A stretch of DNA of 64,000 bases from IMG/VR virus record IMGVR_UViG_3300036791_001436, positions 1 through 64,000 of that record; one strand, written 5' to 3'. Both the position numbers and the translations under genes were made by a program. This document shows positions 33,991 to 54,011 of this stretch, piece after piece. Source of the DNA: a virus. How positions within the stretch are numbered: the first letter of the stretch is position 1; each line of letters opens with the position of its first letter. The notes below the pieces were generated by a model, which was given only the letters and a program-made list of their open reading frames with translations, was not told the DNA's origin and did not search any database.

Positions 33991-34479
33991 CTAACCGAAC
34001 TCCCAAGGGAAGACGACCCAATTATTCGGTATCTCGGTACCAGGGAACGAGATCGGAGGGCGGTGCCCCTTGTAGAACATCACCGCAGTAGTGGCTTCAG
34101 GGAGTAGCCAGCGCGCCCAGGTCATAGTGCGCCCTGTATCCCAGAGGTCGTCGACGATCAGCGAGTCCGGGTTGTTGTACTTGGCTCGGTATTCTGGCAG
34201 AGTCATCTGCGGGCGCGGGAGCAGCTCCCCTAGTCGACGACCGTCCTTATACCCCATTACCCGAACGGATTCAAGGTTGGTCACGTTGAACCTATGGCTG
34301 AGCAGAAGGCCAGCGAACCACCCACCACGCCCTATAGCGAGCAATCGGTCAGGCTTGTACTTGTGCTCAAGCATAACCCTATGCAGGTGATTGACCGCTA
34401 GCTCCGCGGTCGCCCAACTGACGTATACCTTAGGTGCCGGCTCAGGAGCGACCGCGCGTGAGTTAAGCTCTGACGGCAT
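33991..34479 (-). CDS. Purine phosphoribosyltransferase, type I fold
   Basis: A 162-aa enzyme with the PRPP-binding motif VDDLWDTGRT at residues 109-118 and the preceding LLAIGRGGWFAGLLLS loop, as in xanthine/guanine phosphoribosyltransferases. ATG 34479 has AAGGAG eight bases upstream and lies 17 bases inside the end of FolE, so the two are coupled; an upstream ATG at 34527 lacks such a site. In this setting it could salvage guanine into GTP for FolE, but a link with deazaguanine synthesis is only inferred from position. Confidence 0.8.
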   Translation of the reverse strand: MPSELNSRAVAPEPAPKVYVSWATAELAVNHLHRVMLEHKYKPDRLLAIGRGGWFAGLLLSHRFNVTNLESVRVMGYKDGRRLGELLPRPQMTLPEYRAKYNNPDSLIVDDLWDTGRTMTWARWLLPEATTAVMFYKGHRPPISFPGTEIPNNWVVFPWEFG

Positions 34480-35209
34480 CGAAGAACTCCTTCCGCAGAG
34501 GCGGGTTGGTGAGGAATCGTCCGCCACAGCGGTCGGTGACAGTCTTGGAGTTTTGCTGTTGAGCGCCCCTGGCCTTCATGCACATGTGCGTTGCCTTGAT
34601 GCACACAGCGATGTCCGTGGTGCCGAGGATGTATGCCAGCGCCTCGTAGATCTGTGCAGTCAGACGTTCCTGCACTTGAGGGCGCCGAGCGAAGAACTCT
34701 GCCACACGGGCGAACTTGGATAGGCCGAGGAGTTTGCGGTTGGGAATGTAGGCGATGTGCGCCACCCCGTCAATAGGCATCAGGTGATGCTCGCATAGAC
34801 TCATGATCTGGATATCCTGCACCAGCACCATCTGGTCGTAGGCGCCGTGTGCTTCCTCTGGGGGAGGGGCGTTACTGCCGGTCCCTGTAGCGGCGGGGAC
34901 TAGTACGGGCCGAAGCACACCATTCGGCACCACCGTGCACTCAGGGAAGCGTTCGTAATCCAGGCCGGCACAGAACTCCTCAATGAACATCTTCGCATAC
35001 CGGGCCGGTGTACGCATTAGGGAAGGATTGGTCAGGTCCAGCCCAAGATGGTTCAGGGCGATGCACAAGGACTCTTCGATGTAGGACTCTGCCAGTTTGA
35101 AGTCCGGGTCGTCCTTGAGAGGGGTCTCGAACCCCATCTTGACAAGGTGTTTGCGGACCTCCTCGCCTAGGGCGGGGTTGGTGATGTACTCGCTACCGAG
35201 TCGTGCCAT
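34463..35209 (-). CDS. folE: GTP cyclohydrolase I
   Basis: Turns GTP into dihydroneopterin triphosphate, the first step of preQ0 synthesis. The zinc ligands of the family are present: Cys139 and His142 in SLCEHH and Cys210 in THMCMKARG; the QxxNSKT-type end is QQQNSKTVTDR. It has about 25 extra residues near 100-125 (Pro/Ala/Gly-rich). At 248 aa it is close to bacterial FolE. It overlaps DUF3310 upstream and the phosphoribosyltransferase downstream. It lies in the RNR operon rather than next to queCDE, but the same phage carries the whole pathway. Confidence 0.93.
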   Translation of the reverse strand: MARLGSEYITNPALGEEVRKHLVKMGFETPLKDDPDFKLAESYIEESLCIALNHLGLDLTNPSLMRTPARYAKMFIEEFCAGLDYERFPECTVVPNGVLRPVLVPAATGTGSNAPPPEEAHGAYDQMVLVQDIQIMSLCEHHLMPIDGVAHIAYIPNRKLLGLSKFARVAEFFARRPQVQERLTAQIYEALAYILGTTDIAVCIKATHMCMKARGAQQQNSKTVTDRCGGRFLTNPPLRKEFFDAVRA

Positions 35210-35492
35210 TCGTAGCCTCTGCCTGCTTGCGTTGCGCCATTTGGTCCATCTTGCGGCGGCGCTTGATTTCCCTGCGGACGAACCATAGAGCTTTCTCTAG
35301 GTCTTCGTACGGGCAAGGGTGCTTCTCGTCACACCGCCAGAGGTATTGCATGGCGCTGCCGATGTTGAACGGCATGTGCTCGACTATCTCGATGCACTCT
35401 ACGCCCGAGGGGTGATGGTTGTAATGAGGCGGGTGGTTGATCATATCTACCACCGCAGGCTCGTGTTCACGTGGAACGACTGTCATTGACAT
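35193..35492 (-). CDS. DUF3310 protein
   Basis: A 99-aa protein with the DUF3310 pattern: NHPPHYNHHPSGVECIEIVEHM near residue 19, then AMQYLWRCDEKHPCPYEDLEKALWF. Phages often carry this small family near nucleotide genes; the biochemical role is not established. It overlaps RNR by ten bases and FolE by 17, indicating translational coupling. Confidence 0.85.
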   Translation of the reverse strand: MSMTVVPREHEPAVVDMINHPPHYNHHPSGVECIEIVEHMPFNIGSAMQYLWRCDEKHPCPYEDLEKALWFVRREIKRRRKMDQMAQRKQAEATNGTTR

Positions 35493-37933
35493 GTGCTATA
35501 TCCGCATCCCTTACAGATCATGCATCCCGATTCAGAGACGTACTTGTATTCGTAGCACTTCGGGCACTGCTGGACCATCGCTGCCAGTATGCGCGCCTCG
35601 ACTGCACTGAAGTCCATGTCGATAAGCCGAGGCTTAGAAGGGCTCAGGGGCACCACCTTATGTTCCGGAGGCTCTGTAGCTGGCTGGTACAGAGGATCGA
35701 ACGGAGGGGTCATCTGCTCCAGCTTCGAGCCGATGTAGGCGACTAGACTGGGATAGTACTGGCCTTCTGCCCATGCCCCTTCCAAGCTGCTTAGCTGCTT
35801 CAGTTCCTTTGCCAGGTCTTCAAGGGTGAACCCGTACCGGAGTACTAAGCTCATGAGTAGGGAGGTAGTGGTCGTCCACTCCATGCTGCGCTGGTCTTTG
35901 GAGTTGAAGAATATCTCCCAGGGAGTTCCATCCGGAAGATAGTTGATCGTCAGGTAGAGGGCGGAGTTGAGGTTTGGCCAGCGGAGCTTGATTGTTCGGC
36001 CGACGAGCATTTCACTTCGCTCACGGCTGCCATTCCCGTTCGTGCCATTCTCTTGGTGCGGAGTCTCGTCAGGCGTCTCACCAGCCCGGGAGAGAATCGC
36101 TCCACGCACATCGCTAGGGCGATAAGTTGTACAGCCTTTGCAGCCGGCGTCATACGCGAGGGAGTAGACATTGCGGAACTCCTCAAACGTGGTCTCCTTG
36201 GGGAGGTTGATAGTCTTGCTGATGCTTGCGTCGATCCACTTCTGGCAGACTTCCTGCATCCGAATGTGTTCGTGGATCGCCACATCCTCTGCCGTGTTCA
36301 TATGGCGAGGGAGCTCGTCGTCGGGGTGCAGAGAATGCCAAAGCTTGGCAGCGTAGGAGTACTCGGTATAGGGTTTGTAGCTACCATCACCCTGCAGGAC
36401 GTTCCTCTGCATCTCGTGGGCGAACGTTGGCTCGAGCCCGCCGTCGATGTTGCCGTAGGCGATTGAGGTAGTGCCCGTTGGAGCGACGGTTAGGAGCACC
36501 CCATTCCGCAGACCGCGCTCCCGGATCCTATCTTGTAGGGTGTGGGGCAACATGGTGCCAGCGAACCCTTCGAAGAACTGCTCCGCAGAGAACTTCGGGA
36601 ATGGGTCCCGCTCGATGGAGAGTTCCACCGACGTCTCGTATGCAGTGATGCAGAGGGTCTGGATGATCTGCTCTGCCAGCTGGAAGCTGCGCACACTTCC
36701 GTAGCGGGTCCCCATCTGGGCGAATGCGTCGCCGAGACCAGCAACTCCGAGTCCCAAGCGGCGCTTGGCGATCTCTTCTTCACGTTGCTGTGGGAGTGGG
36801 TAGTTTGTGACGTCGATCACGTTGTCGAGGAATCTGGTGCCGATCCGTGCGACGGTCTTCAGGAGCTCGAAGTCGAAGTAGGCGTCGTCGGTGAATGGCT
36901 TCTGCACCATCCTGGATAGGTTCACCGCACCTAGGTTGCACGTACCGTGTGGCGGTAGCGGTTGCTCGCCGCAAGGGTTCGTACAGTGGATGTACTCGCA
37001 GTACTGCAGGTTGTTGAGGTCGTTGATGCGATCAATGAAGATGACACCGGGCTCTGCGTATTCATAGGTTGACTGAAGAATTTGATCCCAGAGATCTCGG
37101 GCTCGGTGGACTGCGTACACGTACTGCTTGAGTCCTGTCTCGTCTTCGTCCCAGTCCAGGTCGATCAACTTGCGAGGGCGCTCGAATGCAGGGGGAACGT
37201 CGAAATGTAGGTACCAGTCTTCGTCCTCTTCGATTGCTCCCATGAAGGCGTCGGAGATCAGGACGGACACGTTGAAGTTGGTCAGCCGACCCTTCTCATG
37301 CTTGGCGGTAACGAACTTCAGGAGGTCAGGGTGGGTGTCGCTGATGGTCGCCATCATGGCGCCGCGACGGTCTCCAGCGGACTTGACAGTTGAACATGCA
37401 GAATTCCAGGTATCCATAAAAGGAAGTGGACCTGATGCAACTGACCCCGTCCGTCTGAGAATGGCACCGGAAGGACGTAGCGTGGAGAAGTCAGTGCCGA
37501 TGCCGCCGCCTTGCTGCCCAGTGAGCATGATATGCTTGAGCGCATCTGCAATGAACTCCATGCTGTCTTCAATGCGGTCGTTGACGTAGCAGTTCATCAA
37601 GGTGACTACCTTGGCAGTGCCGGCGCCAGCCAGGATACGGCCGCCAGGCATCCAGAGGTAGTTCTTCATCGCCACTTCGGCGAGGTCTCGGTTCTTGGAA
37701 CCGATGTCACTCAGGTCCTTGACGTAGATCCCGGACACTACTCGCGAGCACAGATCGTCCCAGGTCTCGATGCCGTAAGCGTACTTGCTCTTGAATATGT
37801 CGGCGACCAGGGGGCTGGAGTAGATGTCGAAGGAGTCGTGCTCCTTCGGGCGCTGGGAGAGGGTGTTGCGTTCTGCTTCGAACCACTCTGCCGAATTGTA
37901 TTCAGGGGCTGGGGCTGGCTTACGGAGGGCCAT
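35483..37933 (-). CDS. nrdJ: Class II (B12-dependent) ribonucleotide reductase
   Basis: Makes deoxynucleotides from ribonucleotides without oxygen or a small subunit. Key residues: Cys115 in MNCYVN and Cys332 in TCNLG as the redox pair, and the radical site NPCGEQPLPP with Asn319, Cys321 and Glu323. GIGTDFSTLRPSG near 144 and TVAPTGTTSIAYGNI near 495 are family-like. The C-terminus has a Cys cluster from 790 (CPKC, CMICKGC, STC), suiting the swinging thiol tail. A peptide DMDFSAVEARILAAMV near residues 772-787, just before this cluster, looks like family A polymerase motif A, which is not expected in RNR. Length 816 aa. Confidence 0.92.
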   Translation of the reverse strand: MALRKPAPAPEYNSAEWFEAERNTLSQRPKEHDSFDIYSSPLVADIFKSKYAYGIETWDDLCSRVVSGIYVKDLSDIGSKNRDLAEVAMKNYLWMPGGRILAGAGTAKVVTLMNCYVNDRIEDSMEFIADALKHIMLTGQQGGGIGTDFSTLRPSGAILRRTGSVASGPLPFMDTWNSACSTVKSAGDRRGAMMATISDTHPDLLKFVTAKHEKGRLTNFNVSVLISDAFMGAIEEDEDWYLHFDVPPAFERPRKLIDLDWDEDETGLKQYVYAVHRARDLWDQILQSTYEYAEPGVIFIDRINDLNNLQYCEYIHCTNPCGEQPLPPHGTCNLGAVNLSRMVQKPFTDDAYFDFELLKTVARIGTRFLDNVIDVTNYPLPQQREEEIAKRRLGLGVAGLGDAFAQMGTRYGSVRSFQLAEQIIQTLCITAYETSVELSIERDPFPKFSAEQFFEGFAGTMLPHTLQDRIRERGLRNGVLLTVAPTGTTSIAYGNIDGGLEPTFAHEMQRNVLQGDGSYKPYTEYSYAAKLWHSLHPDDELPRHMNTAEDVAIHEHIRMQEVCQKWIDASISKTINLPKETTFEEFRNVYSLAYDAGCKGCTTYRPSDVRGAILSRAGETPDETPHQENGTNGNGSRERSEMLVGRTIKLRWPNLNSALYLTINYLPDGTPWEIFFNSKDQRSMEWTTTTSLLMSLVLRYGFTLEDLAKELKQLSSLEGAWAEGQYYPSLVAYIGSKLEQMTPPFDPLYQPATEPPEHKVVPLSPSKPRLIDMDFSAVEARILAAMVQQCPKCYEYKYVSESGCMICKGCGYSTCQ

Positions 37934-37941
37934 CGGTACCT

Positions 37942-38280
37942 CTACTGTGCGACGCGTTCAATCTCTGTGAAGGTATCCGTCTGCGGACGGATCGGCGGTG
38001 CAGTGCGGATCAGAGCGCGAAGGGTTACCACCTCGCATAGAGTATGGCCCTTCTTGCGGTGGCCACCCATCACCACGCGATCCATGAGCGTTGCCGCTCG
38101 ATCTGCGAGTCGTGGGCTGATCGAGAACTGCCCAAGGTTCTTGATGGCGGTTATCAGCACCCCTACGGTGAGTGCCCCGCTCCCGCGGAAGTATGCGTGC
38201 GACAGGATCCAGAATTGGGTAGTGGCCTGTTCGTTGGATTCTGGGTCATAGGCGGGCTTCGGTTGTAGTGACTTTATCAT
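37942..38280 (-). CDS. Hypothetical protein
   Basis: A 112-aa protein immediately upstream of RNR (eight bases). No family recognised; the centre is predicted helical and basic (RLADRAATLMDRVVMGGHRKKGH). It lies in the P3 transcript with RNR and FolE, but no function can be given. Confidence 0.6.
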   Translation of the reverse strand: MIKSLQPKPAYDPESNEQATTQFWILSHAYFRGSGALTVGVLITAIKNLGQFSISPRLADRAATLMDRVVMGGHRKKGHTLCEVVTLRALIRTAPPIRPQTDTFTEIERVAQ

Positions 38281-38309
38281 TGTTGGTCTTCCCCTATCCT
38301 CAACGAGGA

Positions 38310-38344
38310 TGAGCCCCCAGCCAGCGGTACCTGACTGAGGGCTC
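38310..38344 (-). terminator. Hairpin between proline-rich gene and RNR operon
   Basis: GAGCCC near 38311 pairs with GGGCTC near 38338, extended by CAG/CTG with one mismatch on each side, giving a stem of about nine base pairs. A second small hairpin, ATCCTC-AAC-GAGGAT, follows at 38297-38311. No U-tract, so attenuation or mRNA protection is as likely as termination. Confidence 0.35.
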
Positions 38345-38414
38345 CCCTTGTGTCACCTCGCGGATGTGTGCCGGCTTACAGGCACCGCAAGGCTTAGCAA
38401 GTCTGCGTTACCCG

Positions 38415-38921
38415 CTATGCCTTCGGCTGCGGGAGATCGGCCGGATGCGTTGGATGCGAGTCGGCGTCGATCACCACCCAGCGGAAGCCGACATAGGGGA
38501 TGTAGACGAGGATCATGACGTCGCCCTGCACCCCTCCGAGCGGCGGCCACACGGTGCCAGGCGGCAGCGCGATGGGATGCTCCGGCGTTCCCGTGACAAC
38601 CGGCGGCAGCGTGTTGTCCACGTGCGGCGGTGCTTCACCTCCCCAGATCCCCGGGGGAGGCGGAGGGAGAGTGTTGTCGGGCCCGACAGGCGGCGGCCAG
38701 AGACCCACAGCCGGCGGCAGTCCCTGATCCGGATGGGGAGGCGGAGCACCACCCCAGATCCCCGGAGGCGCTCCACCTGGGGCGATCGGGTGGCTCGGTG
38801 CCCCTGGACCCGGCCAGACGCTCGGCGGAGAACCGCCAGGTGCAATGGGGTGGGTAGGCGTTCCGCCTCCGCCACCGCTGTGTGCCAACGGTGTGATCAG
38901 GGCGAGGAAGGGTTCAGACAT
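38415..38921 (-). CDS. Proline/glycine-rich repeat protein
   Basis: A 168-aa protein. The first 115 residues are built of HPIAPGG and PPGIWGG-type short repeats, followed by a compact hydrophobic C-terminal domain (GDVMILVYIPYVGFRWVVIDAD). Proteins of this type are frequent in phages but have no known role. It is the first gene after promoter P3. It is probably disordered with a beta C-terminus. Confidence 0.7.
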   Translation of the reverse strand: MSEPFLALITPLAHSGGGGGTPTHPIAPGGSPPSVWPGPGAPSHPIAPGGAPPGIWGGAPPPHPDQGLPPAVGLWPPPVGPDNTLPPPPPGIWGGEAPPHVDNTLPPVVTGTPEHPIALPPGTVWPPLGGVQGDVMILVYIPYVGFRWVVIDADSHPTHPADLPQPKA

Positions 38922-39016
38922 AACTTCTACTCTCTCCTAAGTAGTGGCGTCTGCCACGGTTGAACGCACTTGTCTCGCCCCCGCCGTACTCTTCGGTCTC
39001 ACTATATGCTATAAGT

Positions 39017-39080
39017 ATTATATAGCATACTAGCGAAGGAATCAAGAGGCAAAATGATGGGCGCCCCAATTTACTTTTGG
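39017..39080 (-). promoter_or_regulatory. Promoter P3 with upstream dyad
   Basis: On the - strand: TTGATT (39045-39040), 17-bp spacer, TATAAT (39022-39017) in GCTATATAAT. CCAATTTACTTTTGG at 39066-39080 is a dyad about 63 bases before the predicted start near 39010. Directs transcription to the proline-rich, RNR, FolE and phosphoribosyltransferase genes. Confidence 0.8.
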
Positions 39081-39096
39081 CTCAGTCTTAGCCCTC

Positions 39097-41508
39097 CTAT
39101 GCCGCCTCCTGTAAGGGTTCCCACTCCTGCATTGCGTCCGAGTCCCAACGTTCACCGAACTTCGCATCGGCGACGAACGGCACTCGTGTAAGGCCCCAAT
39201 CTCTTGGTACTCTGGCCATCACCCCGAGCACGTACGTTAGCGATTCGTCCAAGGCCTGACGGTCCTGACGGATCTTGAAGTAGATGCTGTCGTGCACTAG
39301 GTTGCAGATCCTAGCATTCCACCGCTCGCGAAGCACGGGGGCCACCTCGCAGGCGGCCACGGTGTTGATGTCGGACGCCGTGCTTGAGTGGGGGTAGTTC
39401 GCGGCCTCGTTCTCAAGGTCGTGAAGGTTCTCGTAGCTGACCACACCCCACCTCTTTTTGCGTCCGAAGTTGGTGATCATCGTCCATCCTCGTGCAGGGG
39501 CTTTGCGCGAGTCCATGATGAACTCCTTTGCCCGAGGAAACTGGGCAAACCACCCATCGATGTACTCTTGCGCCACTTCGGTCGTGGTGTCGAATTCCTC
39601 TGCCAAGGTCCATGCAGTGCGCCCATATACGATACCAAACGTGACCGCTTTCGCTCTCATGTACTGCTCGTGGTTGTAGTTCTCCCCAAAGTATCGTCGT
39701 GACACAACCTTGTGGATGGAGGTCTTACCCTCCACGTAGATCTCGCATAGGGAAGGGTCGCCGCTCATAACAGCGAGGCATCGGAGCTCGGCTTGGTTCA
39801 GGTCAGCCTCAACTAACCACTCATCGGGGTCCGCAATGAACTGCCGACGGATGAAGGGACCGCGCTCCATGTTCTGTAGGTTGGGGTCCTTAGAGGCTAG
39901 ACGTCCATTCACAGTCCCATGGATCAGGTAGCTCGTATGAACCTTCCCGTCCTTGTATCTCCACCCGAGCGCGGGCTTAACGTAAGTGCCGTGGCGTTTG
40001 GCGAGCTTCCTTACGCGCTGGATGGGGCGCACAATGGGATGATTGTGCTTGCGCTGGATCTGGATGATCGCCTTGGCGTCTGTGGAAGTGCCGATGGGGC
40101 CTAGCTTCATCCGGTTGTATAGGAGATCCCCCAGCTGTGCTGGGGAGTTGACGTTGATCGGGGCCCCGCAGTACTTGATAGCGTATGGCTGGATCTTGGC
40201 AACTTCCGCTTCGATCTCATCCTTGCACAGCTTGTCGTTCGTTGCGACTACTTCTGGGTCTAGGAGGATACCTTCCAGTTCCACCTCTGCCAGCATTTCG
40301 GAGGCTGGGATCAGTACACGGCGGTACAGCTTGGAGAGGTGTGGGTCCTTAGTGATCCGGGGCTGCTGCGCAAAGAATATCTGGTGCGTCTTGGCAATGT
40401 CATATGCTTGGTACTTGTAGAGAGCCTCTCTAGGTACGAGAGCATACGAGCGGTCGGCTTTCTTGTACCGCTTCAGGTATTGGTCTAGTTCCGCCTTGTG
40501 ATGCGGAGCACCGAGTTCCCGTAGGGCAATTTGATCCAAGTCGTGCAGACCGCGCGTCTCGTTGAGCGCATAGGACTGTAGCATAGTGTCTTCATCGACA
40601 CGAGCTCGTATGCCTTCTGCCCGGAAAAACTTAACGTCAAACTTGCCGTTCTGCCAGATCCATCTGGGTCCACGGGACTCCATGAGCCTCCGGGTAAGAG
40701 ATTCGGCCCGCCAGATAAGGCGGTTCGGGATGATGTAGACATGCTCCCCATTCCACGTTACACCATGTGATATCATCCAGTCGCTGAGGAAGTCGAACCC
40801 AGAGGTCTCGATGTCCCCAGTCAGGTACGGTTGCTTGATGGCCTTATGTACGAACGCGGCATACTCTGGGATAGTTTTGATCACTCTGTAGGTAGGTGGC
40901 TCCCACACATCTGGTGGGCGGTCTTGTGCTAAGAGAACTGCCTTCTTCAGATCCCGCTGCCACTCCGAGTACCCTCCCCCACCTTGCTTCATCAGGAACG
41001 CAGGGTGCACCGCCAGTACTACTCCGTGCTTGGCGAGTGAGGTGGGGATGACTTGCCCACGCACACGGGTAATCTTGATGTTGGTAATGCCGGTTAGGCT
41101 TACGGCTGCATGCTGCCCTAGTGCCAGAATGACTTTGCGAGGGTGCGCGCGGATCTGGTTGATGAGCCGCTCGTGGCAAATGCTCACAGCCCGTGGCATC
41201 CGATCGTCGTCCTTCACCTTCGGGAAGCACTGGATCGCATTGAGGATGAGCGGTTTGATGTGGGGAGGCAGACCTACCTTTGCCAGGATGGTCTCTAGCA
41301 TCTCTCCTGAGGGCCCAACAAACGGGACCCCACGTGACAGCTCTTGCGCCCCTGGGCTCTCTCCGACTATCACGAATGGAGAATCAGCGGGGCCCCTTCC
41401 CCCTACTTTGAGCCCTCCGAAGGGACACCCATTGCAGCCTACTGGCCGCTGGTCTAGAGGGACCCTAGGAATGAGGCGTAGGGCGGACGCTAGAGGATGG
41501 ACAGCCAC
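39097..41508 (-). CDS. Uracil-DNA glycosylase fused to family A DNA polymerase
   Basis: An 803-aa fusion. Residues 1-195 form a family 4/5 uracil-DNA glycosylase-like domain with motif GESPGAQE (49-56), HPAFLM (168-173) and four Cys fit to bind an iron-sulphur cluster (25, 28, 94, 111). Then comes a 3'-5' exonuclease with Asp232 and Glu234 in GDIETSG and YDIAKTHQ near 397, followed by polymerase motifs A (VEADLNQAELR), B (RAKAVTFGIVYG) and C (LVHDSIYF). In motif C, Ser stands where Glu is common after HD; the catalytic Asp is kept. It is probably the replicative polymerase. A linked glycosylase could remove uracil from template or nascent DNA. It ends the operon driven by P4. Confidence 0.9.
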   Translation of the reverse strand: MAVHPLASALRLIPRVPLDQRPVGCNGCPFGGLKVGGRGPADSPFVIVGESPGAQELSRGVPFVGPSGEMLETILAKVGLPPHIKPLILNAIQCFPKVKDDDRMPRAVSICHERLINQIRAHPRKVILALGQHAAVSLTGITNIKITRVRGQVIPTSLAKHGVVLAVHPAFLMKQGGGGYSEWQRDLKKAVLLAQDRPPDVWEPPTYRVIKTIPEYAAFVHKAIKQPYLTGDIETSGFDFLSDWMISHGVTWNGEHVYIIPNRLIWRAESLTRRLMESRGPRWIWQNGKFDVKFFRAEGIRARVDEDTMLQSYALNETRGLHDLDQIALRELGAPHHKAELDQYLKRYKKADRSYALVPREALYKYQAYDIAKTHQIFFAQQPRITKDPHLSKLYRRVLIPASEMLAEVELEGILLDPEVVATNDKLCKDEIEAEVAKIQPYAIKYCGAPINVNSPAQLGDLLYNRMKLGPIGTSTDAKAIIQIQRKHNHPIVRPIQRVRKLAKRHGTYVKPALGWRYKDGKVHTSYLIHGTVNGRLASKDPNLQNMERGPFIRRQFIADPDEWLVEADLNQAELRCLAVMSGDPSLCEIYVEGKTSIHKVVSRRYFGENYNHEQYMRAKAVTFGIVYGRTAWTLAEEFDTTTEVAQEYIDGWFAQFPRAKEFIMDSRKAPARGWTMITNFGRKKRWGVVSYENLHDLENEAANYPHSSTASDINTVAACEVAPVLRERWNARICNLVHDSIYFKIRQDRQALDESLTYVLGVMARVPRDWGLTRVPFVADAKFGERWDSDAMQEWEPLQEAA

Positions 41509-42323
41509 TGCCGCACCGCCCTGATGTTGTCAAGTGCGTGTGGGTGGTCGTCCAGAGTTCCTTTCTCGAACCAGTTCTTCGGGCGAGGCTCTTGCTTGTG
41601 GCTCGGGCTTAGTTGTTGGGGATGGCGTATAGGGACTGCCGAGTCAATTCCTAACACCCCCGTCTGTCGAGCCGCCTGTAGATCATCCCATATGTTGTCA
41701 CTGAACCCCAGCAGGTGGATGTTGATGTCCGGCCGTATGAGATGGATGTACTGCACCGCCGCTGTTCGCATTGGCCCTAGTAGGCGAGGTACTCCTGCCC
41801 AGGTGATCAGCGGGAAGGCCTTGGTGTCCAGTAGGAAAGCGTCTGCGATGTTGGTGAACTCCTCCCAAGAGGGGCCATGCGTCACCAGCATGAATCCTTC
41901 GCTGAGGTCCACGATGTCACTTTGTACCCACTCACTGTAGGCGATCGTGCTACGGAGAGCGGTAATGTCGGCGCTGCCCATCTCATCTGGAAGTACTGGC
42001 ACTAGACGGAGGCGCGAGAGCCGATGGGCGTGGATGGGTTCGGCTGTGGAGATGGCCTTGAGCGCGGCCTCCATCACGTCTATCGGGATGGGTATCCCCA
42101 ACTCCACGATGCTGTTGTCCATGATCACGACAACGTCCCCGCCTGCAGTGGTGAGGATGTATTCTCTGAACCTAGCGGTGAACCGTTCTGGGAACTCCAG
42201 TACGTGGTGCGCCAGGAGGAGATGGTAGTCCCCGAATACAAAAGGGGACATCTCCTCCAGGATCTGGATGGGAGCAACAGGTGCGAACTTCGGGTGGTGG
42301 GTGGGGTGGTTGTTGATTGTCAT
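41490..42323 (-). CDS. dpdA: DpdA-like DNA 7-deazaguanine transglycosylase
   Basis: A 277-aa TIM-barrel enzyme related to tRNA-guanine transglycosylase. IMDNSIVELG (Asp69) corresponds to the first catalytic Asp segment (DSGGFQ) of TGT, and GIDSAVPIR (Asp227) lines up with the nucleophile segment FDCVLPTR. HLLGFSDN matches the loop between them. The zinc-binding Cys/His cluster of TGT is missing, as expected for DpdA. It would swap guanine in DNA for preQ0. ATG 42323 overlaps the queE stop (ATGA); the frame is open further upstream but that part overlaps queE. The TGT relationship is firm; DNA as substrate is inferred from the phage setting. Confidence 0.82.
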   Translation of the reverse strand: MTINNHPTHHPKFAPVAPIQILEEMSPFVFGDYHLLLAHHVLEFPERFTARFREYILTTAGGDVVVIMDNSIVELGIPIPIDVMEAALKAISTAEPIHAHRLSRLRLVPVLPDEMGSADITALRSTIAYSEWVQSDIVDLSEGFMLVTHGPSWEEFTNIADAFLLDTKAFPLITWAGVPRLLGPMRTAAVQYIHLIRPDINIHLLGFSDNIWDDLQAARQTGVLGIDSAVPIRHPQQLSPSHKQEPRPKNWFEKGTLDDHPHALDNIRAVRQWLSIL

Positions 42324-43171
42324 CGTGCGCGCTCGTTTCCCCAGATGAGTACGTGAAGTTGTGGCAGGTACTTCCAGTGTGCCAGTCGCCAGTCGTTCAG
42401 GAAGTCCTGCTCCAGAGAGTCCTTGAAGTCGCGGAGTAGCAGTTTGGGGATATCTTCGTCCCCCTCTGCTGCCTGAAATCCTCTGGCGGGAATTGGTGGC
42501 CACGGATTGCCGACAGAGAGGAATCGCTCCTCTCTTGGGAAGACGTAGTAGTCCAGGAGTGCATCCACTGTGATGGCGAACTCTAGGTCCAGTGCCGAGA
42601 AGACGATGACTTTGATGCTGGTCATGGTGCCACTGCAACGCATCAGGAAGTCGGAGAACTTATCTGGCTCGAACTTCTCTCCCATGCCAGGACCCTTTGG
42701 TGAGATGGTCACCTGGTTGCACAAGGCCACCCAGTCTTGCCAGATGGTCCCTTGGGTCTCTAGGGCGACCTTGAATCCTCGTTGTTGTAGGGAGCGGACT
42801 AGATCACCCCCTTCTTCCCAGATGGCTGGGTTGCCTCCGCTCAGAGTCACCCACTGAGCTAGCCGACCGCATTTTTGGGCGACCTCTTCCGCTATTTCCT
42901 CCGGGTACATCCACGTTGCGTGCGCGTGGATAACTTGAGGGATCACTGCGAACAGGGAGTCGCACATCCTGCAGCGGTAGTCGCAACCTCCTAGTCTGAC
43001 GAACATCGTTTTGGTGCCAATCATGACACCCTCGCCTTGGATGGTAGGGCCGAAGACTTCCATCACGGGGAGCTTGCCTCGCTTCCCTTCGTCCTGATCG
43101 GGGAGCGGTGCTGCCTTGAGCTGGGCTGCCTCAGTCGGGTCGGATCTCGTAGCTTGCGGAATTTCCGTCAT
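42320..43171 (-). CDS. queE: 7-carboxy-7-deazaguanine synthase (radical SAM)
   Basis: Converts 6-carboxytetrahydropterin to 7-carboxy-7-deazaguanine. It has the TIQGEG motif at 43-48, the radical SAM iron-sulphur motif CDYRCRMC (Cys63, 67, 70) and LSGGNPA near 114. At 283 aa it is a little longer than the bacterial enzyme, with a polar 30-residue N-terminal extension. It overlaps queD by 41 bases and dpdA by four. Confidence 0.92.
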   Translation of the reverse strand: MTEIPQATRSDPTEAAQLKAAPLPDQDEGKRGKLPVMEVFGPTIQGEGVMIGTKTMFVRLGGCDYRCRMCDSLFAVIPQVIHAHATWMYPEEIAEEVAQKCGRLAQWVTLSGGNPAIWEEGGDLVRSLQQRGFKVALETQGTIWQDWVALCNQVTISPKGPGMGEKFEPDKFSDFLMRCSGTMTSIKVIVFSALDLEFAITVDALLDYYVFPREERFLSVGNPWPPIPARGFQAAEGDEDIPKLLLRDFKDSLEQDFLNDWRLAHWKYLPQLHVLIWGNERAR

Positions 43172-43589
43172 GTTCCGACACTGTCACTTTCTCTAGTTGT
43201 ACCCGCCCGTCTGATTGGGAGGCGATGAAGGAGTAGGCGTGTTGGAAGATATGGGCAGCGAAGGCCTCGATCCCTACTTGTGGGAGCACTATGAGGTCTG
43301 CCGCTTTGGCGATCTGGAGTTCCCTGAATGTGCTGATCAGAGGATCGTCGGCAGCCACTAGCAGCTTATGGTCGAACTGCTCCTGGAGCCACATCTTCAG
43401 TTCCTTGAGCCCGCCGAAGTCCTGCACCCAGCCATTCTCGTCAAGGGCAAACGCCGAGAACTCGAAGTGGATCTTCAACGCATACCCATGCAGGTAGTGG
43501 CAGTGGGAATCCGATCGCCATTGCCTGAAGCAGCAGCTTAGACCTTGTTCGTGCCCATAGGTCTTGCTGCTAGTGAACCTATGTTCCAT
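43131..43589 (-). CDS. queD: 6-carboxytetrahydropterin synthase
   Basis: Makes 6-carboxytetrahydropterin from dihydroneopterin triphosphate. The catalytic Cys30 and LHGYALK segment match the CxxLHGHxF region, and SEHDGNSASYE near the C-terminus fits the Glu/Tyr active-site segment. The third zinc His of the usual HGH is a Tyr here (HGY, residue 36), while His13, His29, His31 and His34 are present. The length of 152 aa is normal for the family. It lies five bases upstream of the overlap with queC in a tightly packed block. Confidence 0.85.
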   Translation of the reverse strand: MEHRFTSSKTYGHEQGLSCCFRQWRSDSHCHYLHGYALKIHFEFSAFALDENGWVQDFGGLKELKMWLQEQFDHKLLVAADDPLISTFRELQIAKAADLIVLPQVGIEAFAAHIFQHAYSFIASQSDGRVQLEKVTVSEHDGNSASYEIRPD

Positions 43590-43594
43590 GGCTG

Positions 43595-44389
43595 CTACTC
43601 CGCCAGGTAGACGGTTGGGTCGTGGACGATCGCATCGTGGAACGCTTCCCTACGTGCGATACAGGTTGGGCAGACACCGCAGTGCCGGCTCTCACCTGCA
43701 TAGCAGCTCCAGGTGTCTGCGAAGTCGACGTCCAGGGAGTCACCGAGTTGCACGACTTCGGACTTCACCATGTGCACCAAGGGAACGCGAAGGCGCACCT
43801 TCCCGTAGGTGCCGATCTGGATGGCTGCCGCTTGCGCACCGAGGAACTCCAGAGTGCAGTCTGGGTATGCGTCTCTGGCTGCATCGTCGGCGTGCATCCC
43901 AGCGTAGAGAATGGCGTTGGCCTGTGCTAGGCTCTTCTCTGCTGCCATCACCCAGGACTGTGCCCTCGCTGCCATGATGCTGAGCATTGTCCCGTTGCGA
44001 TAGCTGACGTAGGTTGGGGAGATGCCTTCGGGAAGCTCCCCGTACGACATCTGGGGGATGGGTTCGTTCACTTCCTTGTCCACCAACATTCCCGTGAAGG
44101 ACCCTTGGATGTTGACAACGATGTGCTCGGCCTCGAACTTCTTGGCTTGCCTGCGGGCGTACTCGATCTCCTTCTTGTGCCGTTGCCCATAATCGAAGGT
44201 CAGGCACTCGATCTCAGCACTGGGGAATTGGTCACGAGCGAACGCCAGGACGGTGCTGGAGTCGACTCCTCCCGACAACATGACGAAGCACTTGGTGACC
44301 ACGAGCGGGGGCTTGGGTCTCGGATCCCTAAATGTCGAAGTCAGGGTCTGGGGTAGGTCTGACTCTGTGGAGGTAGGGTGATCGACCAT
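43595..44389 (-). CDS. queC: 7-cyano-7-deazaguanine (preQ0) synthase
   Basis: ATP-dependent conversion of 7-carboxy-7-deazaguanine to preQ0. The PP-loop SGGVDSST is at residues 39-46, TFDYGQRHKKEI follows near 65, YVSYRNGTMLS near 130, and the zinc cluster CYAGESRHCGVCPTC near 235. ATG 44389 has AGAGG upstream; an earlier ATG at 44431 lies deeper inside the HTH gene. At 264 aa it has no fused amidotransferase domain, so preQ0 and not the amidine form is the expected end product within this window. Confidence 0.93.
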   Translation of the reverse strand: MVDHPTSTESDLPQTLTSTFRDPRPKPPLVVTKCFVMLSGGVDSSTVLAFARDQFPSAEIECLTFDYGQRHKKEIEYARRQAKKFEAEHIVVNIQGSFTGMLVDKEVNEPIPQMSYGELPEGISPTYVSYRNGTMLSIMAARAQSWVMAAEKSLAQANAILYAGMHADDAARDAYPDCTLEFLGAQAAAIQIGTYGKVRLRVPLVHMVKSEVVQLGDSLDVDFADTWSCYAGESRHCGVCPTCIARREAFHDAIVHDPTVYLAE

Positions 44390-44636
44390 GTTGGCCTCTA
44401 GCTTGTGGGTCGGAGGGTGGAGACTGGGCAAGACGTCGGAGCTCGGAGATGGGGATGCGATAGTTGCGCCCCATGTACTCGCCCTTGATCTGCCCAGTCT
44501 TGATCCAGTTCAGTACCGTGTGGTAGTGTACGTGGAGTAACGGTGCAGCGCGACGAGGCGATATCCATCCTCGGAGGTTGAGGATCTCCGCCGCCGTGAG
44601 ACCGGCGACTTCTTCTTCAATGTCGTTGGGGGACAT
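44328..44636 (-). CDS. Small helix-turn-helix DNA-binding protein (excisionase-like)
   Basis: A 102-aa protein with a MerR/excisionase-type HTH: ISPRRAAPLLHVHYHTVLNW near residue 25 and a wing IKTGQIKGEYMGRNYRIP. The C-terminal 30 residues are a basic Pro-rich tail that overlaps the start of queC by 62 bases in another frame. It is the only clear sequence-specific DNA-binding protein seen in the window, so it is one candidate to bind the dyads upstream of the promoters. That link is speculation. Confidence 0.75.
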   Translation of the reverse strand: MSPNDIEEEVAGLTAAEILNLRGWISPRRAAPLLHVHYHTVLNWIKTGQIKGEYMGRNYRIPISELRRLAQSPPSDPQARGQHGRSPYLHRVRPTPDPDFDI

Positions 44637-53311: not shown

Positions 53312-53374
53312 ATTATATAGCACCCAACGAGTGACCTCAAGAGTCCAAATTGTGGTTGCCATTGTTTCTGTTGG
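53312..53374 (-). promoter_or_regulatory. Promoter P5
   Basis: On the - strand: TTGAGG (53340-53335), 17-bp spacer, TATAAT (53317-53312) in GCTATATAAT. A CCAAATTGTGG block lies near -45, as at P7, and a weaker CCATTGTTTCTGTTGG at 53359-53374 is centred near -61.5. The -35 overlaps the last codon of the DJ-1-like gene. Confidence 0.75.
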
Positions 53375-54011
53375 CTCGGGCCTTGTCGATCATCGCCCGG
53401 ACCTCTGGTGACATCTTCCGCTCATGCCCCTTAGGGGTGTATCCCGATTCTACCAGGCTGTACTTTGGTGGCCGGTCTTCTAGGATGTTGATGATCTCCT
53501 CCGCCCACATCTCCGACAGCATCTGGTTCTCTGCCGTTGCCATCTTCCCGTCCACCGTCAAGCTGACGGTTTGGAGTACGGCACCAAACTCCTCCAGCCG
53601 TTGTCGCGATCGGACTAGGGGGAAGAAGCTCACCCGCTTTCCTTGGGCAATTGGTGCTAGTGTAGGGACCGAACAACAGATGGCAGAGGTCATCTTGCCC
53701 TCGCCTTGAAACCCCCTCAGTAGTTGCTGCAAGTGGTCGTCCGTCCAGTAAGCCTCTGTGTCGGCCATGTTGCCTGACACCACTACGATCCCGTCTAGGG
53801 TTGGAGTGGAATGGGCCGTCACCGCCTCAAGAGGGCTGACTTGATAGACTGTCCTCTGGATAGTGTTGGGACGTAGTGTCAGCTCATCCCGGATTAGGGT
53901 TTCTTGCGACACGACTTCGAAGGAGTGCCCCTTTTTCTGGAGCACCCCCAACAGGGTCCACAGCTCATGGCCATTGTACCTCTTCGCACATACAACTAGC
54001 ACTTTGGACAT
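53337..54011 (-). CDS. DJ-1/PfpI-like protein
   Basis: A 224-aa protein with the class I amidotransferase-like fold of DJ-1/PfpI: VLVVCAKRYNGHELW at the start, DGIVVVSGNMAD near 73, and the nucleophile elbow TSAICCSVPTLA with Cys112, then SFFPLVRSR and TAENQMLSEMWAEEII as in DJ-1 TGxxP regions. Such proteins act on damaged or modified small molecules or as chaperones; the substrate here is unknown. They are uncommon in phages. It is transcribed from P6 with the 133-aa gene. Confidence 0.75.
   Translation of the reverse strand: MSKVLVVCAKRYNGHELWTLLGVLQKKGHSFEVVSQETLIRDELTLRPNTIQRTVYQVSPLEAVTAHSTPTLDGIVVVSGNMADTEAYWTDDHLQQLLRGFQGEGKMTSAICCSVPTLAPIAQGKRVSFFPLVRSRQRLEEFGAVLQTVSLTVDGKMATAENQMLSEMWAEEIINILEDRPPKYSLVESGYTPKGHERKMSPEVRAMIDKARANRNNGNHNLDS

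Follow-up and report, generated by a model that had tools for sequence, protein, structure and literature searches.

A preQ0 gene cassette with a divergent DpdA-like protein points to 7-deazaguanine modification of phage DNA

The IMG/VR virus record IMGVR_UViG_3300036791_001436 (75,339 bases) carries, within the 64,000-nucleotide stretch analysed here (positions 1 to 64,000, hereafter the window), genes for FolE, QueD, QueE and QueC, the enzymes of the pathway to 7-cyano-7-deazaguanine (preQ0), together with a gene for a 277-residue protein resembling tRNA-guanine transglycosylase (TGT). An initial annotation, made from the sequence, had proposed that this set places a 7-deazaguanine in the DNA of the phage. 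The cassette is confirmed by our analysis, and the 277-residue protein represents a very divergent DpdA-like lineage, DpdA being the transglycosylase of an already known kind of system, and is absent from every family library searched.

Layout of the locus

The genes form two blocks (Table 1), the first transcribed in the order helix-turn-helix, queC, queD, queE, transglycosylase and a polymerase of family A (PolA) fused to a uracil-DNA glycosylase (UDG) domain. A gap of ~0.8 kb and a 112-residue open reading frame lead to the second, comprising NrdJ, DUF3310, folE and a phosphoribosyltransferase gene. Within each block, genes meet end to end or share anything from a few to some tens of bases with their neighbours, as in coupled operons. 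The gap contains a promoter-like site (39045–39017, 10/12 match), which with the gap itself makes the earlier assignment of folE and queCDE to separate operons plausible; the scan, however, returned only 6 such sites against 4.1 expected. Megablast of the region against phages gave no match and no tRNA genes were found in the window. The terminase of the window phage shares 55% identity with its counterpart in the Brevundimonas phages, so the host is probably alphaproteobacterial.

Table 1. Genes of the preQ0 cassette and associated features in the window
Feature	Position	Strand	Evidence and remarks
Helix-turn-helix / excisionase-like protein	44328-44636	minus	PF12728 + TIGR01764; first gene of que operon
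queC, 7-cyano-7-deazaguanine (preQ0) synthase	43595-44389	minus	PF06508 E=1.4e-48; no fused amidotransferase domain
queD, 6-carboxytetrahydropterin synthase, FRQWR...HC..LHGY type	43131-43589	minus	PF01242, phrog_2389
queE	42320-43171	minus	TIGR03365 over cut-off; CxxxCxxC
Predicted DpdA-like DNA-guanine transglycosylase, 277 residues	41490-42323	minus	AlphaFold2 fold + residue conservation
Family-4 UDG domain fused to family-A DNA polymerase	39097-41508	minus	PF03167 + PF01612 + PF00476
Class II (adenosylcobalamin-dependent) ribonucleotide reductase NrdJ, folE operon	35483-37933	minus	
DUF3310 protein, folE operon	35193-35492	minus	PF11753 over cut-off
folE, GTP cyclohydrolase I	34463-35209	minus	NF006824 over cut-off
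Xanthine-guanine-type phosphoribosyltransferase	33991-34527	minus	PRK09177 E=5.8e-15; GTG start 34527, internal ATG near 34479
DJ-1/PfpI protein, candidate modifier of 7-substituent	53337-54011	minus	PF01965 E=1e-10

The preQ0 pathway enzymes

Profile matches identify all four pathway genes. FolE scores 239 bits against NF006824 (cut-off 202) and QueE 214 bits against TIGR03365 (cut-off 206), the best PDB sequence match of the latter being 5tgs (E=1.6e-42). QueC reaches 166 bits against PF06508 (cut-off 22) and 147 bits against TIGR00364, slightly below the cut-off of 150, and QueD 71 bits against PF01242 (cut-off 22) and E=2.6e-42 against phrog_2389, with only 42 of 89 bits for TIGR03367. The key residues of FolE, the CxxxCxxC motif of QueE, and the PP-loop (SGGVDSS) and Cys cluster (C-x7-CxxCxxC) of QueC are intact. 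These matches support a complete preQ0 pathway encoded by the phage, less strongly for QueD than for the other three enzymes. Neither a QueF-like nor an amidotransferase-fused QueC (Gat-QueC) gene was found in the genome, as the initial annotation had stated (ArcS was not the object of a separate search); some records gave weak QueF matches, which fall where folE is found and were rejected. The window phage thereby differs from phages bearing 2'-deoxyarchaeosine (dG+) or 2'-deoxy-preQ1 (dPreQ1), whose Gat-QueC, QueF or QueF-L gene has no counterpart found in it.

A TGT fold with invariant aspartates and without the zinc cluster

Searches of Pfam, PHROGs and NCBIfam with the 277-residue protein gave no family match, and phmmer and profile searches of PDB sequences returned nothing relevant. 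Its AlphaFold2 model (predicted local distance difference test 92.5, predicted template-modelling score 0.90) is an alternating β/α barrel, for which the first 24 Foldseek matches in the PDB are all tRNA-guanine transglycosylases (E 4e-6 to 3e-4). Against viral models the best TM-score belongs to a protein of Cellulophaga phage phiST, and a mycobacteriophage 'queuine tRNA-ribosyltransferase' is likewise among the matches. The TGT fold is thus confirmed for the modelled protein.

To collect relatives we ran tblastn against 50,697 phage records, with matches in two Brevundimonas phages (43% identity), which resemble the window in gene order, and Weizmannia phage Youna2 (26%). A five-member profile then recovered 108 relatives in IMG/VR, from which we retained 80 loci; the family counts given here refer to 62 non-redundant members. 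The family profile found zero relatives in 84,980 prokaryote genomes, which therefore offer no host or prophage context. Fourteen residues are invariant across the 62 proteins (D69, S71, E74, D113, G150, R186, H203, G206, D214, D227, S228, P231, R247 and N266), among them both presumed catalytic aspartates, D69 in MDNSIVEL and D227 in GIDSAVP, which sit at the ends of two barrel strands of the model. The CxCxxC zinc motif of E. coli Tgt occurs in 0/62, and the window protein has no cysteine anywhere; the initial reading of a TGT-like protein with both aspartate segments and no zinc cluster therefore stands. The protein shares with bacterial Tgt the TIM-barrel fold and the order of motifs along the barrel, but is ~100 residues shorter and has no detectable sequence similarity to it. 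In the model D69 lies at a strand end, D113 after the next strand and D227 on the last strand; the chain order D69, D113, Q/H149-G150, H203-LLG, D227 presumably parallels D102, D156, Q203, LMG and D280 of Zymomonas Tgt. Residue 180 is Arg or Lys in all 62 relatives (R180 in the window protein) and, by its position in a hand-made alignment, falls near the TGT Glu that reads the preQ1 amine. It would fit an uncharged or acidic 7-substituent rather than preQ1, although this is only a hint.

Homology to the CP220/immuto group

The family profile detects the DpdA of immuto (77 bits), a Rhizobium phage protein (60), CP220 gp056 (58) and a CC_R7 protein (40), and profile–profile alignment with the CP220/immuto group (phrog_19058) by hhalign extends over the full length (E=6e-20, 236 columns) with every motif aligned, the shared motifs being DNSxxEL, PD, QG, HLLG and D[ST]xxP. 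The window protein is, by these sequence comparisons, homologous to this group, yet forms a separate clade: searched singly against the phrog_19058 profile it gives no match, and in a tree the window family forms its own clade (support 100/97; 99/100 for its separation from the CP220/immuto group). A starred branch divides it from the CP220/immuto group and CC_R7, and Youna2, BSP7 and the Rhizobium protein branch off basally on the window side. Several long branches leave the deeper order unsure. Both groups occur near que/folE genes (in immuto for the known group) and with a xanthine-guanine phosphoribosyltransferase (XGPRT)-like gene. They differ in that the immuto group has AISFDYSY where the window clade has R186, that R/K180 is specific to the window clade, and that the UDG–PolA neighbour is a feature of the window side. 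We take the CP220/immuto group to be, or to include, DpdA3 of Cui et al. 2023.

Three further proteins touch on this group. CP220 gp056 (L086:9968-10744), labelled a 'hypothetical protein', shares 44% identity with immuto DpdA. It probably represents the transglycosylase missed in Campylobacter phages by Hutinet et al. 2019. The phiST gene 042 product (L202:4548-5327) is DpdA-like and encoded near queD–queE–folE and a polymerase gene in a genome with no QueC match; it may insert a base from earlier in the pathway than preQ0. Gene 69 of HVTV-1 (L092:33803-34963), an archaeal virus bearing dPreQ1, adjoins folE in the same gene context as in the window and encodes PF20314 (DUF6610). This family weakly matches the Youna2, BSP7 and CP220 members (E 0.001–0.005) and may be a DpdA family; the window protein itself has no DUF6610 match.

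A conserved cassette–polymerase module

The arrangement seen in the window is near-invariant among the relatives. Genes of the que/folE set lie within 1.5 kb upstream of the transglycosylase gene, on the same strand, at 59 of the 62 non-redundant viral loci, and a PolA gene lies within 1.5 kb downstream on the same strand at 60. A folE gene was located in 39 of 40 records; the one without it is a 31-kb fragment. The transglycosylase gene accompanies the cassette in all loci collected, and the module queC–queD–queE–(folE)–transglycosylase–PolA was seen in ~80 environmental phage contigs. Besides que, folE and PolA, the only genes found repeatedly near the transglycosylase gene are replication and helix-turn-helix genes (helix-turn-helix homologues precede queC in several relatives), and no further conserved enzyme genes were found in the cassette.

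Two observations concern the neighbours. The UDG part of the window fusion retains GESPG, HPA and the Cys ligands, and similar domains are present in most of the PolA proteins encoded beside transglycosylases of this family. In Rhizobium phage RHph_I1_18 (L088:7956-9224) a DpdA-like domain is fused to DUF3310, which in the window is a separate gene of the folE operon.

A phosphoribosyltransferase associated with this DpdA group

Purine and xanthine-guanine phosphoribosyltransferases are the nearest solved relatives (E ~1e-8) of the phosphoribosyltransferase whose gene adjoins folE in the window and in relatives. Its Brevundimonas homologue, used as query, has relatives in only 22 of the 50,697 phage records: Campylobacter (7), Cellulophaga (5), Flavobacterium (4) and Brevundimonas (2) phages and four unannotated fragments or metagenome records. 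Eighteen of these belong to phage lineages where DpdA of the CP220, immuto or window type was found (such genes were found in CP220, CC_R7, phiST, immuto and Brevundimonas phages); records within one lineage are not independent, and about four host lineages carry the gene. In IMG/VR, 64 of 80 immuto-type transglycosylase genes have it no more than 3 kb away, and 8/8 long immuto-type records contain it. Within the 40 records searched (window family, one being immuto) 11 have it, 7 of them within 250 bases of folE. It was not found in BSP7, Youna2 or the Rhizobium phage, nor in 9g, CAjan or HVTV-1, and of ten other DpdA1-type records a single one gave a weak match. Among the phage records the gene is thus nearly confined to this DpdA group, which suggests that released guanine is recycled; the simplest role for the enzyme would be to salvage guanine set free in the exchange reaction. 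We found no mention of a guanine-salvage partner for such systems in the accessible literature.

Discussion

We consider it likely that the window encodes a 7-deazaguanine DNA-modification system that works by base exchange. FolE, QueD, QueE and QueC would convert GTP to preQ0, and the TIM-barrel enzyme of the TGT superfamily would swap guanine for preQ0 in phage DNA, with D227 attacking C1', guanine leaving and D69 helping the incoming base to bond. DNA modified in this way would resist host nucleases, probably a means of hiding the phage genome from bacterial defences. The phosphoribosyltransferase would probably salvage the freed guanine through GMP to GTP for FolE, pulling the exchange forward. 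Homology and fold, the catalytic residues conserved without exception and the nearly fixed synteny all point the same way, and the initial annotation was very likely right to place a 7-deazaguanine in the phage DNA. What it overlooked were the phosphoribosyltransferase, the atypical QueD, the distance from the tested DpdA1 and the widespread cassette–polymerase module; to it we add the CP220/immuto homology, the fixed polymerase neighbour, a natural precedent for the atypical QueD and the phosphoribosyltransferase association.

The experimental precedent is DpdA1 of 9g and CAjan, shown to insert preQ0 or G+ in DNA (PMC6884629). Like the window, these phages have the same pathway genes and a transglycosylase gene that adjoins replication genes; unlike it, their enzyme has no detectable sequence or profile similarity to the window protein, and they lack a detected XGPRT.

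Several observations weigh against our interpretation. The family profile (hmmsearch) did not detect DpdA1 of 9g/CAjan or E. coli Tgt, and hhalign gave no signal to DpdA1, the experimentally tested group, or to E. coli Tgt, so the link to them is drawn from structure and motif order only. Residue 149, which corresponds to the base-reading Gln of TGT and is Gln in 60/62 relatives, is His in the window protein and one other member. The phosphoribosyltransferase is missing from 29 of the 40 records and hence not obligatory. The presence of a DJ-1/PfpI protein leaves the final base open. Key residues had been claimed for all four pathway enzymes, and QueD departs from this: it keeps its Cys, its Asp–His pair and one zinc His but has other residues in place of the remaining two canonical zinc His of the three. 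Immuto and Aminobacter plasmid pSR3 (53% identical) encode this atypical type as well, the pSR3 gene sitting between queE and queC, so the window QueD is most likely a working alphaproteobacterial type.

preQ0 itself had been put forward as the DNA base, and remains the default and simplest reading, argued from the absence of QueF and Gat-QueC. Rosebush and CAjan, preQ0-gene phages with the same set and no amidotransferase, carry 2'-deoxy-preQ0 (dPreQ0), and deletion of dpdA in CAjan abolishes it (PMC6884629). The best placed alternative, which we nevertheless think unlikely, keeps the same system and changes its product: the DJ-1/PfpI protein or a host enzyme would alter preQ0, either once inserted or before insertion, for example to the amide 2'-deoxy-7-amido-7-deazaguanosine (dADG). 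That protein has a class I amidotransferase fold with an AIC nucleophile-elbow motif, and its gene occurs in 6 of the 40 records (the window genome and 5 of 39 others), in two of them inside the cassette (between queC and queD in L016, directly after queE in L049). The related Campylobacter phages, with no recognised DpdA in 2019, were reported to be highly modified by dADG (PMC6884629). Downstream enzymes also differ among relatives: immuto has QueF, and phiST has queD, queE, folE and the transglycosylase with no queC match, so this enzyme group would work with different bases. Against such a product, 34 of the 40 records lack the DJ-1 gene and the cassette has no other conserved enzyme gene. 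CAjan gp46 ('FtrA domain') was considered as a DJ-1 counterpart and ruled out as unrelated.

Action on tRNA, boosting the queuosine pathway in the manner of cellular TGT, is highly unlikely. The TGT fold would suit it, and a boost to host queuosine has been suggested for phages with que genes and no DpdA (PMC6884629), but the zinc cluster is absent from all 62 relatives, the protein has 277 residues against 375 in E. coli TGT, its gene is fixed beside a DNA polymerase gene, the homologous group is annotated or inferred as DNA-acting, and the window has no phage tRNA genes. Least probable of all is entry of the modified base as a nucleotide, cf. 2-aminoadenine phages, the phosphoribosyltransferase forming preQ0 monophosphate that would be reduced, phosphorylated and incorporated by polymerase: the gene does adjoin folE, with ribonucleotide reductase and PolA close by, but it is present in only 11 of 40 records whereas the transglycosylase gene is always with the cassette, and dpdA is essential for modification in CAjan (PMC6884629).

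Taken one step beyond base exchange by the transglycosylase, this new deep lineage of predicted DNA-guanine transglycosylases might form a closed cycle, in which expelled guanine is recaptured through XGPRT, returned to GTP and made into preQ0. We offer this tentatively; if true, the phage could exchange much, or even all, of its guanine. With this lineage the sequences known for DNA-guanine transglycosylases become more diverse, and a guanine-salvage enzyme joins them as a possible partner. Brevundimonas phages StAshley and MaInes, Weizmannia phage Youna2 and Bacillus phage BSP7 all encode the key enzyme under the label 'hypothetical protein'; naming the transglycosylase makes the phages that carry the module predicted DNA-modifiers, a prediction that is directly testable.

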